Shown here piece after piece: positions 3,477 to 9,241 of a stretch of 9,241 bases of DNA. This DNA is from Oscillospiraceae bacterium (GTDB taxonomy: Bacteria; Bacillota_A; Clostridia; Oscillospirales; WRJC01). Each line of letters begins with the position of its first letter. The stretch's first letter is position 1. The stretch lies in NCBI GenBank assembly GCA_009785015.1, contig WQXD01000135.1, positions 1 to 9,241 of the forward strand, read 5' to 3'. The notes under the pieces were generated by a model. It was not told the DNA's origin, searched no databases, and saw only the letters and a program-made list of their open reading frames with translations. The position numbers were made by a program, and so were the translations under genes.

Positions 3477-4808
3477 TTGAAATCGCGGTTTGGCAAAGGG
3501 ATAAAACAAGATGTAAGGCAGATGTTTGACAGATATTTAAACCAGGAGCTGGATCTGCAGATTCAGTTTTTTAACCTGCTGGCCTTTATAGGCATGATTT
3601 CGGGCGTTATGGTCTCGGCGATGAGCGCGCTTTCGGGGGCGGGCCCCGGCGTGTTTTTGCTCAATCTGGCGATTTCGCCCCTGTCATATATAATGCTCCG
3701 CGTGGCGGAAAAGAAAAAATGTTACCGGTTGTGCAGCTGGCTGTGGTTTGTTCTGATATTCATGCTTTCGTTTCCGGCTTTGTTTTTTCTGTGCGGGGGG
3801 CACAAAAGCGGGACCTCGTGCCTTTTTATCCTCGCCATCGCATATACGGCGTCGCTGCTCGAAAAACGCGAAAAAGTCATAGCCGTCGCGCTTGAATTCG
3901 CAATTTACAACGCCTGCACCCTGATTGGCTATTACTACCCCGAAATGTTAGCCGTTTTGCCCTCCGATTTCACGTATACGCTGCATGCGGTGATGAATTT
4001 TTGCTCGTGCGGCACATTGGTGCTTGTCATGCTCGTTTTAAAAAACCGCATGATAAACGCCCGCAAGGCCCAGGTGGATGAACTGATGCGAGAACTCGAG
4101 GCCAGAAATGAAACGCTGAGGCAGTACGACCAGATGAAAAGCGACTTTTTGGCCACCGTGGCGCACGAAATAAACACACCCTTGGCAATAATCGCCGCGA
4201 GCGGCGGCGATACCTTGGATTTGCTCGGCGAGACGCCGCTGAAAACGGACGAAATAACGGAAAACCTGATGGAATCGAACCGGATGGTCAAGGTGATCGA
4301 CAACATAGTCCAGGCCTTAATGGACACGGCCGCCATCGAAAAGGGCAGGATCCCGCTGAACCGCCAGCCCGTCGATATGTCCGAGCTGCTCAAGATCGTC
4401 TGCGGCACCCAGCATAAAAAATTGGATGTAAACAACAATACACTCACATTTGACTTCCTTCCGGATCTGCCCGAAATATGGTTGGATCCGGTGAAAATCG
4501 AGCAGGTGATGATAAATCTGCTTTCCAACGCCTTCCAGCACACGCGCAACGGGAATATAACGGTCGGATTATCCTCAAAGGACAACAGCCAGATTGTCAG
4601 CGTGACCGATAACGGCGACGGAATGGAGCCGGAAGTGGCCCAGGTCGCCTTAAAGCAGTATGTTTCGACAAAAGCCGATCACTGGTACCACGGGATCGGA
4701 CTGTATATATGCCGCCGCATCGTCATCGCGCACGGAGGGGAAATCTGGATAGAAAGCGAGAAAGGGCGCGGGACCGCGATTCATTTTTCGCTGAAGGAGG
4801 GGGCGTAA
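3477..4808 (+). CDS. Membrane sensor histidine kinase (HisKA/HATPase)
   Basis: This 443-residue kinase autophosphorylates on His and passes the phosphate to a response regulator, most likely the one encoded next door. The N-terminal sensor half is nearly all membrane, with six hydrophobic segments at about 31-52, 56-76, 84-106, 113-128, 133-152 and 168-189. No sizeable extracellular loop is visible, so it may sense the membrane itself or a small ligand. A helical linker (about 193-218) leads to the H-box AHEINTPL with phospho-acceptor H230. The ATP domain shows the N-box INLLSNAFQHT (N351), the G1 box DNGDG (D378) and the G2 box HGIGLYICRRI (405-415), followed by GRGTAIHF. No HAMP or PAS domain was seen. 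Translation starts at TTG with a good ribosome site 7 bases before it. The response-regulator gene begins 3 bases after the stop. Confidence 0.93.
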   Translation: MKSRFGKGIKQDVRQMFDRYLNQELDLQIQFFNLLAFIGMISGVMVSAMSALSGAGPGVFLLNLAISPLSYIMLRVAEKKKCYRLCSWLWFVLIFMLSFPALFFLCGGHKSGTSCLFILAIAYTASLLEKREKVIAVALEFAIYNACTLIGYYYPEMLAVLPSDFTYTLHAVMNFCSCGTLVLVMLVLKNRMINARKAQVDELMRELEARNETLRQYDQMKSDFLATVAHEINTPLAIIAASGGDTLDLLGETPLKTDEITENLMESNRMVKVIDNIVQALMDTAAIEKGRIPLNRQPVDMSELLKIVCGTQHKKLDVNNNTLTFDFLPDLPEIWLDPVKIEQVMINLLSNAFQHTRNGNITVGLSSKDNSQIVSVTDNGDGMEPEVAQVALKQYVSTKADHWYHGIGLYICRRIVIAHGGEIWIESEKGRGTAIHFSLKEGA

Positions 4809-4811
4809 AAA

Positions 4812-5522
4812 ATGCCTGCGAGAGCATCGATCCTGATAGTTGAGGACTATGAAGTGATGGCGCAGTTAAACGCCCGTTTGCTGGAGCGGCGGGGATATGA
4901 GACGTCTGTCGCCTTTACCGCGGCAGGGGCGCGGGAGTTGTTTGGCGGAAAAGAATTCGATTTGTATGTGCTCGATATAACGCTCCCCGACGGCGACGGC
5001 CGCACCCTGTGCAAGGAAATCAGGCAGAGAACCGACGCGCCCGTATTGTTTTTGACGGGAAAAACGGAAACAAGGGACAAATTGGAGAGTTTTCTGCTCG
5101 GGGGGGACTATTACCTGACAAAGCCGTATGACAAGGACGAGTTTCTCGCCGTCGTCCAGGCGCTGCTCCGCAGGGCCGGACAGGTCCAAAAAAAAATCGA
5201 CGAGGCTTCCGTCATCACGCGGGGTCCCATAAAGCTGATGGTGGCCGAAAGAAAGGCGTATGTAAACGAGCTCGAAGCGGAACTGACCGCCAAGGAATTC
5301 TCGCTGCTTCTGATTTTGGTGCAAAACGAGGATACGGAAGTGTCCTACGAGACGATTTACGAGCAGGTTTGGGGGGGGCCGATGAACGACGACGTGGGCG
5401 CGCTCCGCCAATTGGTCTCGCGCCTGCGAAAGAAATTGGACGAGGAAAACGCAAGGGGATTTTCCATTTTCAACAAACACGGAAAAGGCTATACTTTCGC
5501 CGTTTTGCCGACGGGCGAGTAG
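4812..5522 (+). CDS. OmpR/PhoB-family response regulator
   Basis: This 236-residue transcription factor is the likely partner of the kinase immediately upstream (3-base gap; AAGGAGGGGG about 8 bases before the ATG). The receiver domain (about 6-120) has the full set of active-site residues: E11-D12 acidic pair, phospho-acceptor D55 in VLDITLPDG, T82 in FLTGKT and K104 in TKP. A short linker (121-133) joins a winged-helix DNA-binding domain (about 134-232) with the typical LTAKEFSLLLILVQN, YEQVWGG, VSRLRKKLDE and GKGYTF elements. The linker is encoded by an A9 run (5188-5196). Loss of one A would reach a stop at 5230, leaving a receiver-only protein. A G8 run (5371-5378) lies in the DNA-binding domain. 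Its target genes are unknown; the following two transcription units are natural candidates. Confidence 0.94.
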   Translation: MPARASILIVEDYEVMAQLNARLLERRGYETSVAFTAAGARELFGGKEFDLYVLDITLPDGDGRTLCKEIRQRTDAPVLFLTGKTETRDKLESFLLGGDYYLTKPYDKDEFLAVVQALLRRAGQVQKKIDEASVITRGPIKLMVAERKAYVNELEAELTAKEFSLLLILVQNEDTEVSYETIYEQVWGGPMNDDVGALRQLVSRLRKKLDEENARGFSIFNKHGKGYTFAVLPTGE

Positions 5523-5677
5523 GGGAATGCGAAAACGCGCGGTTAATTACCATACATGCGGACAAAAATAACATTTTTGTGATTTATCGGGAAGAGCCTT
5601 TTTTTATGATACGATAATATTAATTCGGACGAGCGGGTTCACTATATACCATATAAGGAAAGAGAGAAAATAATATT

Positions 5678-6682
5678 GTGCATGGCAAAACGCTTTTGTT
5701 GATCGGCAGCAGCCGACCCCTCATGGATTTTACAAAAAAACGGCTTGAACGCGCGGGGTATTTTGTATGCTGCGCGGGGGGGCTGGTTGAGGCGAGAAAA
5801 GAATGCGGCGACAGGAAACCCGACGGGATTTTGGTGGAAAGCGAGCTTCCGGACGGAAAGGGGTTTGATTTCTGCCGGGAAGTGCGCAATGAATGCGCCG
5901 TGCCGATAATGTTTTTGTCCCACGACAAAAACGACGAATTACAGGCATTGCGGGCGGGAGCAAACGATTTTTTGAAAAAACCGTGCGATTATGAAATTTT
6001 ATTGGCCCGGATCGATGTGATGCTGAAAGAACGCCCGAAAGGCGGCGTTCTTTTTCCGGATGATTTCGGCGATAAGCCGCAAACAGGGGACGATACGATG
6101 ACGCCCGCCGCCGAAACCGCGGCCGGCGAAGAGGAAACGGCCGAACCGGAGCCCGATGAGCCTGACGAAAGCGCAAAAAGAAATGCGCGGCACTTCATCA
6201 GACGCTTGTACGCGTTCGCCGCGGCTTGTTTTGTGATGATGATCGGCGCGGCCGGGGTGTTTTTGATGACAAGCAAACCGCCGGAAGAATTTTTGATAGA
6301 AGACGAAGGAGTGCCGCTGGCGGAAGCGCCTGTCCGGGGGACAAAGCATCTCCACGAACTGACGATAACGATGATGGGAATAAAGATACCGAAATTCGGC
6401 GATATAACGATTCCGTCCGATTCGGCAAATGTATATATATTTTTGCCCAACCCGGAGGACAACTCGTGTCTTTTGGGCTATGAAATATTTTTGGAGGATA
6501 CGGACGAGACGATATATTTGTCGGAAATGATAGCGCCGGGCGAATGCGAGGAAAACCTGACGCTCGCGCGGGGGTTGGCAAAAGGCGAATACGGCGCCGT
6601 CATAAAAGCGGTCGCCTACGCCTCCAAGGACCTCGCGGTGGTGGAAGAGCTGGAAATACCCCTGCGCATAACGGCAAACTGA
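5678..6682 (+). CDS. Membrane-anchored pseudo-receiver with extracytoplasmic domain
   Basis: This 334-residue protein has an unusual domain order. Residues 4-117 align with a response-regulator receiver (LPDG at 57-60, KP at 101-102, similar to the regulator encoded upstream). However, the acidic pair is replaced by G10-S11, the phospho-acceptor Asp by E54 and the Thr by S81; the Lys is kept (K101). It is therefore probably not phosphorylated, and Glu may mimic the active state. A Pro/acidic linker (about 122-166) is followed by basic residues (168-176) and one transmembrane helix (about 177-197). The remaining part, outside the membrane, has a beta-rich domain with IKIPKFGDITIP and FLPNPEDNS. 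It resembles, from memory, a domain seen in many Firmicutes surface proteins. The GTG start is preceded by a weak, purine-rich AAGGAAAGAGAG (5655-5666). The ATG at 5682 is out of frame. The 155-bp gap upstream has -10-like TATGAT (5605) and GATAAT (5613) but no clear -35 and no clear terminator. Function is unknown. Confidence 0.8.
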   Translation: MHGKTLLLIGSSRPLMDFTKKRLERAGYFVCCAGGLVEARKECGDRKPDGILVESELPDGKGFDFCREVRNECAVPIMFLSHDKNDELQALRAGANDFLKKPCDYEILLARIDVMLKERPKGGVLFPDDFGDKPQTGDDTMTPAAETAAGEEETAEPEPDEPDESAKRNARHFIRRLYAFAAACFVMMIGAAGVFLMTSKPPEEFLIEDEGVPLAEAPVRGTKHLHELTITMMGIKIPKFGDITIPSDSANVYIFLPNPEDNSCLLGYEIFLEDTDETIYLSEMIAPGECEENLTLARGLAKGEYGAVIKAVAYASKDLAVVEELEIPLRITAN

Positions 6683-6721
6683 CTTTGTTTTCTTAAAAAA
6701 TTATTGCGCTTTTGGAGTGTC

Positions 6722-6733
6722 GTAAAATTTTAC
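6722..6733. repeat. 12-base perfect palindrome upstream of the solute-binding protein promoter
   Basis: GTAAAATTTTAC is fully self-complementary and lies 10 bases before the -35 box, centred about 51 bases before the predicted start, where activators often bind. It is not followed by a T-run, so it does not look like a terminator. It does not match the CcpA cre consensus. Confidence 0.35.
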
Positions 6734-6743
6734 AAATTTACCA

Positions 6744-6772
6744 TTGAAGTTATTTCCGTAATATGCTATCAT
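6744..6772 (+). promoter_or_regulatory. Promoter with extended -10 for the solute-binding protein operon
   Basis: TTGAAG (6744-6749) is separated by 17 bases from TATCAT (6767-6772). A TGC directly before the -10 gives the extended TGn motif (6764-6766). Transcription would start near 6779, leaving a leader of about 50 bases. This marks 6830 onward as a transcription unit separate from the regulatory genes. Confidence 0.6.
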
Positions 6773-6829
6773 ATATTTCATGTATGTCATGATTATTTTG
6801 AGCGCGTATAAAGAAAGGAAACACGTAAA

Positions 6830-8296
6830 ATGGGCAGCATTAAAAAAGCAAGTATTATTTTTATGTTTGTTGGACTGCTTGCCGCCGCTTTGATATCATG
6901 CGGCGATAAAAGCGATGTAAAAGACAATGCGGATAAAGACGCTTCGATAACCGCCGCCGCCGATGAGGAAGAAATACCGGAACGCTACAGGATCAAGGAA
7001 AATCTGCCTGAAATAAAATTTGACGGGTATGAGTTTAAAGTTTTTGTGGAAGAGTACGGAACCCCTGATATAGAAGCGGACGAAGAAATCGGCGAAATTT
7101 TCCACGACACCATATATCGCCGCAACCGCATAATCGAAGACAGGTACGGCGTCGAATTCAAAACGATTTCCGAAATACAGACTTCTTATGCGGCCAAAAT
7201 CAAAAACGAAATTTTGTCGGGCAACGCTTTCTATGACCTCGCCTTGTGCCACGGGCGCGACGCCGCCAACCTGTCGCTGGGCAACCTGTGGGCCGACTGG
7301 AAACTGTTCACATATATAGACATGGAAAAACCCTGGTGGGACCAGGAACTGATCAGGTCGCTGTCCATCGGGGAAAAAGTATTTCTGATGTCCGGCGACT
7401 TCAACAATTATTCTTTTAAGATGACCAGCGCGCTGGTATTCAACAAAAACATGATGACGAGCTTCGGTATGTCATATCCGTATGAGCTCGTGAGAGAGGG
7501 CAAATGGACCTCCGCGGCGTTTCAGGGTTATCTTAAAGACGTCACGAGAGACCTAAACGGCGACGGCGTGATAGAATGGGCGACGGATCAATATGGTTTT
7601 GTCAGTTGGGAAGCCGATTCGCCGTATTCATTCTCGTTTGGATTCGGCAGCAAAATCGTGGTCAAAGATGAACAAAACATGCCTGTTTTGAGTATGGATA
7701 TTCCCCTTCATATAAAAATCGTCGAAGAGCTGTATGAGATATTCACCGTCAATCAATCGTTCGTATGCACGGGCGCGATGGGTTGGGGAAAAGATTATGA
7801 AGTCTTCACCGACGGCCGCGCGTTGTTTTTGGATATAAAGCTCGACCAGATCGTGACGATGCTGAAAGCGATGACCGACGATTTCGGGATTGTCCCGATT
7901 CCCAAGTTGGACGAAAGTCAAAAAGATTATCTTTCGTTTGTCAACTGCCATTCCACCTTGATGTGCCTGCCCGTGACAAACGGCGAATACGACCGGACGG
8001 GTATTATTTTGGAAGCGCTGGCGGCGGAGTCCTACCGCAAGGTGACGCCGGCGTATTACGACGTGGTGCTGCAAATCAAAACCACGCGCGACGAAGAATC
8101 CGCCGATATGCTCGATTATGTGACCCGCAACCGCATATGGGACATGGGGTATGTATATGACATCGGCGGCCTCACCGGGTATTCAAATCAGCTCATTTTG
8201 TCCAAAAGCACGAATTTCGCGTCATATTATGAAAAAAACGAATCCGCCGCGGTGAAAAGACTCGAGAAAATGATCAGTGAATTTACAAAAGATTAG
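6830..8296 (+). CDS. ABC-type extracellular solute-binding lipoprotein (sugar-type)
   Basis: This 488-residue protein is probably the substrate-capturing component of a carbohydrate ABC importer, tethered outside the cell. It begins with a basic stretch, a hydrophobic core and the lipobox LISC, giving lipidated C24, then an acidic flexible linker (about 25-55). The mature part matches the large clostridial family-1/8 solute-binding proteins: FDGYEFKVFV, a YRRNRIIEDRYGVEF block, YPYELVREGKWT, DFGIVPIPKLDESQ and many surface aromatic residues. A DLNGDGVIE loop (241-249) resembles a calcium-binding EF-hand loop, which is frequent in these proteins. AAAGGAA lies 9 bases before the ATG. No permease gene follows; instead a glycoside hydrolase gene starts 24 bases downstream, so the importer partners are either further on or elsewhere. 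The ligand is unknown; an oligosaccharide is inferred from context. Confidence 0.88.
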   Translation: MGSIKKASIIFMFVGLLAAALISCGDKSDVKDNADKDASITAAADEEEIPERYRIKENLPEIKFDGYEFKVFVEEYGTPDIEADEEIGEIFHDTIYRRNRIIEDRYGVEFKTISEIQTSYAAKIKNEILSGNAFYDLALCHGRDAANLSLGNLWADWKLFTYIDMEKPWWDQELIRSLSIGEKVFLMSGDFNNYSFKMTSALVFNKNMMTSFGMSYPYELVREGKWTSAAFQGYLKDVTRDLNGDGVIEWATDQYGFVSWEADSPYSFSFGFGSKIVVKDEQNMPVLSMDIPLHIKIVEELYEIFTVNQSFVCTGAMGWGKDYEVFTDGRALFLDIKLDQIVTMLKAMTDDFGIVPIPKLDESQKDYLSFVNCHSTLMCLPVTNGEYDRTGIILEALAAESYRKVTPAYYDVVLQIKTTRDEESADMLDYVTRNRIWDMGYVYDIGGLTGYSNQLILSKSTNFASYYEKNESAAVKRLEKMISEFTKD

Positions 8297-8320
8297 ATAG
8301 ATTAGAAAGTGGAGGTTTGT

Positions 8321-9241
8321 ATGCGTATAATCGACGAAAACAAATTCAAGTGTCCCGAGATGAAATACCGCGTAAACCCGATGGTTCATTACAGCTGGCC
8401 CGCAGACCGGCAGTTGTTCATGCAGGCGCTTAAAGATTATGGTTTCGGCGGGGTCGTGACAAATGTGAACACGCAGAACGGGTTTTGCGAAAATTCCGAA
8501 AATCTCGAGGATTTCAGAAAACTGACCGACCAGCTCGACTTCAACGGATTGTCATATTGGATATACGACGAAAACGGATACCCGAGCGGATACGCGGGAG
8601 GCGAAACGCTGAAAGGGCACCCGGAGCTCGAAGCGAAAGGCTTTTACATGGTGCGGCGCGTCGCCTATGAGCCCCGTTCGGTTTCATTTGCGATAGACGA
8701 CGAAACCGACAAGATCGTCTGGGCGGCGAAATATCCGATTCTGACTCCGCATATGCACGAGAGCTTTATCGACGAGGCCAATATGCAAAAAGTCCCCTTC
8801 ACCGAAACCGGGGTGAAATGCGAGCTCGGAGAAAAAGAGGCGTTGTTTATCTTCTGCGTCAAGCCGGCGTACGAGGGCAGTCACTGCGTCCACAATGTCT
8901 GCTCGTTTGCCCGTTATATCAATATCATGGAACCGAAAGCGGTCCGGCGTTTTATCGACTTGTGCTACGAGCCCGTCGCCGCGGCCATACCGGATGTATT
9001 CAGGCGGGCAAAAGGGGTATTCACCGACGAGCCCAGCCTGCAGGTCGAATATGTGCGCAATTACGAAACATGGAATTACGCCCTTGCGCCGTGGGCCGAG
9101 GGGTTGTTTGAAGAATTTGAAGCCGAATACGGATTTCCGATCTTTCCGTATCTGCCCTATCTGTTTGAGGGAAGGCCCGAAAACGCCTACCCAATCCGCG
9201 TGAAATTTTATAAGCTGGTCGGAAAGCTGATCGCCCGCGCC
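8321..9241 (+). CDS. Putative GH106-like glycoside hydrolase, N-terminal 307 residues (cut by window edge)
   Basis: An uninterrupted reading frame runs from this ATG to the last base, so the 3' end is missing. GGAGG (8311-8315) is 5 bases before the start. The protein looks like the TIM-barrel part of a large glycoside hydrolase related to the GH106 alpha-L-rhamnosidase group. It has a YGFGGVVTNV strand at about 43-52, the characteristic WIYDENGYPSGYAGG at 80-94, and FTDEPSL with D236-E237, the likely catalytic acidic position. No signal peptide or lipobox is seen, so it should act in the cytoplasm on imported material. It follows the solute-binding protein gene by 24 bases and is probably co-transcribed from the promoter at 6744. 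The exact family and substrate are uncertain because the C-terminal half is absent and the assignment rests on recognised motifs. Confidence 0.72.
   Translation, partial: MRIIDENKFKCPEMKYRVNPMVHYSWPADRQLFMQALKDYGFGGVVTNVNTQNGFCENSENLEDFRKLTDQLDFNGLSYWIYDENGYPSGYAGGETLKGHPELEAKGFYMVRRVAYEPRSVSFAIDDETDKIVWAAKYPILTPHMHESFIDEANMQKVPFTETGVKCELGEKEALFIFCVKPAYEGSHCVHNVCSFARYINIMEPKAVRRFIDLCYEPVAAAIPDVFRRAKGVFTDEPSLQVEYVRNYETWNYALAPWAEGLFEEFEAEYGFPIFPYLPYLFEGRPENAYPIRVKFYKLVGKLIARA

Follow-up and report, generated by a model that had tools for sequence, protein, structure and literature searches.

A predicted membrane-anchored pseudo-receiver encoded beside a complete two-component pair in an Oscillospiraceae genome

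The window, by which we mean the whole 9,241-nucleotide stretch of Oscillospiraceae DNA analyzed here, carries on its forward strand a two-component pair followed by a third gene of unusual layout. The pair begins with a histidine kinase of 443 aa (3477..4808) matching Pfam HisKA (residues 220-289) and HATPase_c (337-441). Judged by hydrophobicity, its N-terminus is multi-pass, with 5 hydrophobic segments in residues 34-188 and without a sizeable outside domain. Next comes an OmpR-type response regulator of 236 aa (4812..5522) with a Pfam REC-Trans_reg_C (winged helix) architecture and an intact receiver (E10, D11, D54, T81 and K101), so that the complete pair named in the original prediction is indeed present. 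A gap of 155 bases (5523..5677), containing an inverted repeat with 8-base arms at 5562-5580, separates the regulator from the third gene (5678..6682). Downstream lies a gene for a predicted lipoprotein of 488 aa (6830..8296; LISCG lipobox read by eye), for which no match was found in Pfam or NCBIfam. It is possibly a transcription unit of its own; the promoter-like site in front of it (6744-6772) is weak, as 6 such sites were found against 3.2 expected by chance. The last open reading frame (8309-9241), which runs off the window, has a very weak, below cut-off match to glycoside hydrolase 106 (0.041), and together with the lipoprotein gene it is possibly part of a glycan-use locus.

The third gene encodes 334 aa from GTG at 5678 to the stop at 6682. 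The public gene prediction for the same protein (P0002) starts at Met16 and not at this GTG (window 5678-5723), and consequently lacks receiver strand 1. Residues 1-118 (5678..6031) form the pseudo-receiver domain. Pfam Response_reg (PF00072) matches residues 13-112 (2.8e-14; 53.7 bits, cut-off 30.2), AlphaFold gives residues 1-118 the (beta-alpha)5 receiver fold with 10-residue blocks mostly at pLDDT >=90, and all 50 listed of 1797 Foldseek matches were receiver-domain proteins, 8fk2_A and 1zh2_A among those listed (TMt 0.90). The five-residue active site reads G10, S11, E54, S81 and K101 and is broken at the first three; F98 occupies the switch aromatic position. There follow a Pro/acidic linker (residues 119-169, 6032..6184), predicted to be disordered over 121-165 (pLDDT <50), and a transmembrane (TM) helix (residues 170-198, 6185..6271), which was modeled by AlphaFold and coincides with a hydrophobic peak at 179-197 (KD 2.28) with net charge +4 before and -4 after it. 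Beyond a juxtamembrane motif, DEGVPL (residues 209-214, 6302..6319), recognized with a home-made pattern, lies the outside domain (residues 226-334, 6353..6679), a predicted Ig-like beta sandwich with strands at 228-333, mostly at pLDDT 94-97. Pfam returned no DNA-binding match in this protein, which has the TM helix and beta domain in that place, and no curated-family match to residues 200-334, the predicted fold being the common Ig-like one. A relative at another locus (L150) has a CARDB match of 9e-4, below cut-off. Sequence and predicted structure thus establish the parts, with an N-in/C-out orientation as judged by sequence. These results confirm what the original prediction had observed, namely a pseudo-receiver with these residues, joined through a Pro/acidic linker and a single TM helix to an outside domain.

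A single-sequence database search returned three full-length relatives beyond the window's own entry, and a profile built from these found at least 38 relatives (P0003-P0005 and P0016-P0050) among 7998 candidates scored; the remaining matches were regulators, cyclases and similar proteins. A genome scan, of which the best 80 of 242 loci were kept, added one member at locus L001 of an Oscillospiraceae MAG. The family set thus comprises 40 proteins: the window protein, 38 database relatives and L001. We found no receiver-plus-outside match beyond genome G001 in overlapping sets of 99, 394 and 147 genomes with a limited number of candidates scored per genome, and G091 and G068, the window's closest relatives by RnfC among the 99 genomes, gave no receiver-TM-outside match.

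The membrane topology recurs across the family. A 19-residue segment with a Kyte-Doolittle mean of at least 1.7 follows residue 110 in 38 of 39 members (the exception being P0022), and the 15 residues before the TM segment are net positive in 36/39 members and the 15 after it in none (0/39), which argues for an N-in/C-out topology by charge distribution. The home-made juxtamembrane pattern [DEN]x(1-2)[VIAGMTSP]P[LMIV] follows the TM segment in 35 of 42 proteins. An outside domain is present in 29/40 members, including P0022, which lacks the TM segment. P0022 is a near-copy of P0018 with the linker and TM missing in frame, so that its receiver is joined to the outside domain; listed with 19 member sequences and 1 contig, it may be a real variant or an assembly artefact. 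The other 11 members (P0040-P0050, 206-243 aa) consist of the receiver, the TM segment and a further 22-55 residues, usually ending soon after an xP[LI] motif, and the outside domain is therefore not required in every member. Contig ends are an unlikely cause for five of these short forms because their tails are all 32-33 residues long; others, such as P0043 and P0047 on contigs of ~1 kb, are possibly cut short in this way.

We assessed the active site in one alignment of the 40 family members with 44 ordinary regulators. At least one of the five residues is missing in 36 of the 40 members and at least two in 31, compared with 3 broken sites among the regulators (40/44 complete, 1 not judged). 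Four members (P0016, P0017, P0031 and P0039) were not judged, since their predicted start falls after strand 1; they have D54, S81 and K101 and could in principle have a complete site. Every member whose site is visible is broken. For six members starting after strand 1 (these four, P0024 and P0047), positions 10-11 were scored as missing, and these sequences were left out of the tree described below. At position 54, 16 of the 40 members have E, 13 have D, 9 have G and 2 have S. The suggestion that the protein is constitutively active-like is therefore not supported, and a residue that varies in this way lends poor support to a phospho-mimic. Asp54 in homologues had been named in advance as evidence against the pseudo-receiver idea, and it does occur in 13 of 40; however, all 9 of these whose strand 1 is present have S or G in place of the second acidic residue (DD2), and the acidic pair of the other 4 is not judgeable. 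P0048 and P0050, the two members with both acidic residues, carry G54 and R101. On the other hand, S81 and the switch aromatic at K-3 (F98) are kept in 40/40 members and K101 in 34/40, while the T+1 position is Asn in 20/40 and Ala or Gly in 7/40. Ser at the Thr position also occurs in 9/44 ordinary regulators, so of the losses first listed for the window protein, G10, S11 and E54 stand and Ser81 is not itself a loss. Taken together, these counts indicate that the Mg/phosphate site was broken by different routes and the switch pair kept. The available part of PMC12632262 defines pseudo-receivers (PsRs) as PF00072 domains without one or more of DD, D, T and K, and names DD2 loss as the commonest loss among them; by this definition the family are pseudo-receivers. 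The window protein, with E54, also qualifies as an aspartate-less receiver (ALR), but the family as a whole does not because 13/40 members keep Asp54.

The Asp54 members might instead be weak phosphoacceptors that take phosphate slowly, with the Glu and Gly members derived. D54 in 13/40 and K101 in 34/40 members would agree with this, as would the four D54 members that are not judgeable at the acidic pair and the statement, in the accessible part of PMC12632262, that phosphorylation sometimes survives a substitution of DD, T or K. We nevertheless regard it as hardly probable at all, given that every D54 member with a visible strand 1 (9 proteins) carries S or G at DD2, that T+1 is Asn in half of the family and Ala or Gly in only 7/40, and that the window protein itself has no Asp54.

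Constraint on the receiver domain was compared by column entropies in 35 non-redundant family members and 43 regulators. The family spans less diversity than the regulator set and was drawn by a word-sharing search, a method that favors conserved stretches, so the overall level is biased while the ranking among structural elements is informative. The pseudo-receiver/regulator entropy ratio is lowest in alpha1 (0.31), followed by alpha4 (0.37), and the former metal loop (1.25) is the one element in which it rises above 1; in absolute terms, the family entropy of beta5 (0.64) and alpha4 (0.76) is lower than that of alpha1 (0.86). Receivers usually contact their kinase through alpha1. The docking or relay role first suggested for the protein would fit the relative conservation of this helix in the alignment, although alpha1 could also serve a partner other than the kinase. 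If the head were only a functionless leftover of a regulator that anchors the outside domain, decay of the active site in several ways, with at least two losses in 31/40 members, would be expected; yet S81 and F98 are kept in 40/40, alpha1 is conserved and 11 members retain head and TM without the outside domain, opposite to the pattern expected if the head were useless. We consider this reading very unlikely.

The receiver tree (79 receivers, short alignment, midpoint root) left many forks unresolved. In it, the 34 family members form one clade (SH-aLRT 100) on a stem of 1.49 changes per site. A supported branch (97) groups this clade with 20 regulators, including those of the window and L001, which are sisters to each other (SH-aLRT 99). 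Positions 87, 97, 107 and 111, which we take to be the usual OmpR-family dimer salt-bridge sites, have diverged on both sides: the family has E87 in 38/40 and I/V107 in 40/40 members and mostly keeps the D97/R111 pair (38/40 and 39/40), whereas in the regulators of the window and L001 the residues are K87 and E107, and Y97 and V111 stand in place of the D97/R111 pair. Such non-matching changes in both partners argue against a standard pseudo-receiver/regulator dimer. They bear directly on the idea that the pseudo-receiver pairs through its alpha4-beta5-alpha5 face with the true regulator, tethering it at the membrane near the kinase or off DNA. The second rank of alpha4 in relative constraint (ratio 0.37) and the invariance of S81 and F98 would be in keeping with such a tether, and heterodimers of this kind are one possibility proposed for CmrT/CmrR in the part of PMC12632262 consulted; faced with the mismatch at the salt-bridge positions, we find it distinctly unlikely.

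The gene order was read at further loci. Only two, the window and L001, were available for the full architecture, and the complete order of kinase, regulator and third gene is established at both. In L001 the kinase (5733-7094) and the regulator (7143-7868) are followed by the pseudo-receiver gene, which lies inside the frame 7905-8996; identity to the window counterparts is 52% for the kinase, 59% for the regulator and 38% for the third protein. By hydrophobicity, the L001 kinase also has a multi-pass N-terminus and no outside domain. A search for homologues with a receiver-TM-outside order beside a kinase-regulator pair thus yielded a second genome. Another locus in the same genome, L093, encodes a kinase, a regulator and then a 339-aa protein with a winged helix, a TM segment and the same outside domain. 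Pfam matches in its kinase are 7TMR-DISM_7TM and HATPase above cut-off and HisKA below, and the N-terminal winged helix of its third protein is Trans_reg_C-like (22.7 bits, below the cut-off of 26.2). One database relative, P0089, has the same winged helix-TM-outside layout, also with Trans_reg_C below the Pfam cut-off. As both share the TM-outside part with the family, one outside module has acquired two distinct heads of regulator origin. Between its first two hydrophobic segments, outside the 7TM region, the kinase of L093 has a long N-terminal part (57-236), so lack of a sensor in the kinase itself is not general. The third gene is separated from the regulator by 129 bases in L001 (7869-7997) and by 210 bases in L093 (10158-10367). 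Inverted repeats were seen by eye in these gaps, with 9-base arms in L001 (AATTGTGTC/GACACAATT) and as a long hairpin with a T-run in L093.

Kinases belonging to this multi-pass class (25-30% identity along almost all of their length) are found beside a regulator at L195, L196, L197 and L200, and no third gene was found there in the regions opened, that of L200 ending ~1 kb after the regulator. The third gene is thus an optional part of such loci. At L197, the regulator is followed by a gene for a 1558-aa protein with an export-like N-terminus.

The TM-outside module matches 31 of 247 related genomes and also occurs without any head domain. A gene encoding it precedes a signal-peptide gene at 16 of 24 loci (14 of the 21 stand-alone ones), compared with 25 of 166 control genes; the 24 loci (the window, L001, L093 and the 21 stand-alone loci) include near relatives and so are not 24 independent events, and the signal-peptide rule was home-made. 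This rule scored L001, L148, L149, L153 and L161 as negative, although their neighbors look exported by eye. The association gives some credit to a reading in which the role of the kinase-regulator pair is confined to controlling how much third protein is made, with the head directed at a different target and the outside domain docking a surface protein. It would also suit the gaps of 129-210 bases between regulator and third gene in the three cassettes, and expression-level control is one model for CmrRST in the available portion of PMC12632262. We hold it to be somewhat unlikely, since it does not explain why alpha1 is relatively conserved or why the kinase-regulator neighborhood recurs, and since the gene downstream in the window encodes a lipoprotein of another type.

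Several neighbors of the stand-alone genes were recorded. At L148 (G017:C27, 3628-4705) an ECF sigma factor gene is directly followed by a stand-alone TM-outside gene and then by one for a 1384-aa protein with LRR and Fn3-associated domains; the gene directly after an ECF sigma factor is the typical place for an anti-sigma factor. At L153 (G056:C30, 7521-9992) the TM-outside gene lies beside one for an 823-aa protein with an export-like N-terminus, a ubiquitin domain (PF00240, 5.2e-32) and MBG repeats. Small export-like proteins (150-200 aa) are encoded near TM-outside genes at L145, L146, L150, L152, L184 and L185, several of them with a Y-T-V-T-I-P-like motif, and the small export-like protein at L149 has a weak match to Spore Coat Protein U (0.023). 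A second receiver-TM-outside protein, P0090, which does not belong to the present family, is encoded at L179 (G008:C69, 2600-3700). Its acidic pair reads E-S and its phosphorylation position is Glu, but Thr and Lys are retained; its outside part is different, and its TM segment recurs, without the receiver, in the two genes that follow. No kinase or regulator was found within the 9 kb opened around it.

The likeliest reading, to which we give a probability of roughly 45%, is that the third protein is an accessory input subunit of a kinase-regulator-accessory cassette, whose dead receiver docks on the kinase. We infer the ligand of the outside domain, the binding to the kinase and the direction of the effect. 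In outline, the outside domain, or the TM segment with the juxtamembrane motif, would respond to the state of the envelope or of a surface protein, and this response would pass through the TM segment and change where the tethered pseudo-receiver sits or how available it is. The long linker would let the head reach the kinase beside it in the membrane, where it could dock on the HisKA helices through the conserved alpha1 face. As a decoy competing with the true regulator, it might then alter the balance among the kinase, transfer and phosphatase activities of its partner; the output would be carried by the phosphorylated true regulator, with no phosphate passing through the third protein. In favor of the accessory subunit we count the gene order shared by the window and L001, their sister regulators, the single pseudo-receiver clade, the broken site, the constraint on alpha1, the retention of S81 and F98, the two kinases without an outside domain (window and L001), the interchangeable cytosolic head (L093 and P0089), the TM-outside gene after an ECF sigma factor (L148) and the precedent of ShkA and CikA described below. 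Against it count the 11 members without an outside domain, the optional nature of the third gene, P0022 without a TM segment, the long N-terminal part of the L093 kinase and the lower absolute entropy of beta5 and alpha4. Overall, the interpretation offered in the original prediction is partly supported.

If this reading is true, a pseudo-receiver is controlled from the far side of the membrane while the genes for its presumed kinase and regulator lie next to its own, which makes it directly testable, and a natural sister form joins the outside module to another head. The receiver would be working in reverse, serving as an input module instead of an output module, and a surface event could steer a kinase without phosphate on the third protein. 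More tentatively, Oscillospiraceae and their kin may possess a class of three-component systems in which sensing has moved from the kinase to a single-pass protein with an Ig-like outside domain, whose head, either a dead receiver or the winged helix of the sister type, serves as a protein-protein input to the kinase or acts on the promoter.

Our literature search found no description of a bacterial receiver-TM-outside protein. The window protein resembles bacterial PsRs in its PF00072 match, its receiver fold and the loss of DD1, DD2 and D, but differs from them in the fusion of the receiver to a linker, a TM helix and an outside domain; in the main text of PMC12632262, as far as it was available, the word 'transmembrane' occurs 0 times and 'membrane' once. 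The claim that receivers are normally soluble and that the present order is rare holds in so far as the order is unusual, but it has an archaeal precedent. MetOD3-REC-MetOD2 comprises 4 receiver proteins in Methanoregula with a domain described as membrane-anchored (available part of PMC5847659). Compared by description, that anchored domain is N-terminal to the receiver, whereas the TM helix of the window protein comes after it. The winged helix-TM-outside protein of L093, which like P0089 we take to be ToxR-like in layout, shares the TM-outside module and the place after kinase and regulator with the window protein, and differs in having a winged helix, not a receiver, as its head. Similarly, the CmrRST operon of Clostridioides difficile encodes a kinase, a regulator and the pseudo-receiver regulator CmrT (consulted part of PMC12548384), and so resembles the window and L001 in that a pseudo-receiver is encoded with a normal kinase-regulator pair. 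However, CmrT is an OmpR-family gene regulator, while the window protein has no DNA-binding part and instead has a membrane anchor and a predicted outside domain. Finally, the pseudo-receivers of ShkA and CikA inhibit the autophosphorylation of their own kinases, that of ShkA by binding HisKA (PMC12632262, in the part available). The action of a dead receiver on a kinase, here only proposed, would be the same in kind, but theirs lie within a hybrid kinase and sense c-di-GMP or quinones, whereas that of the window belongs to a separate membrane protein.
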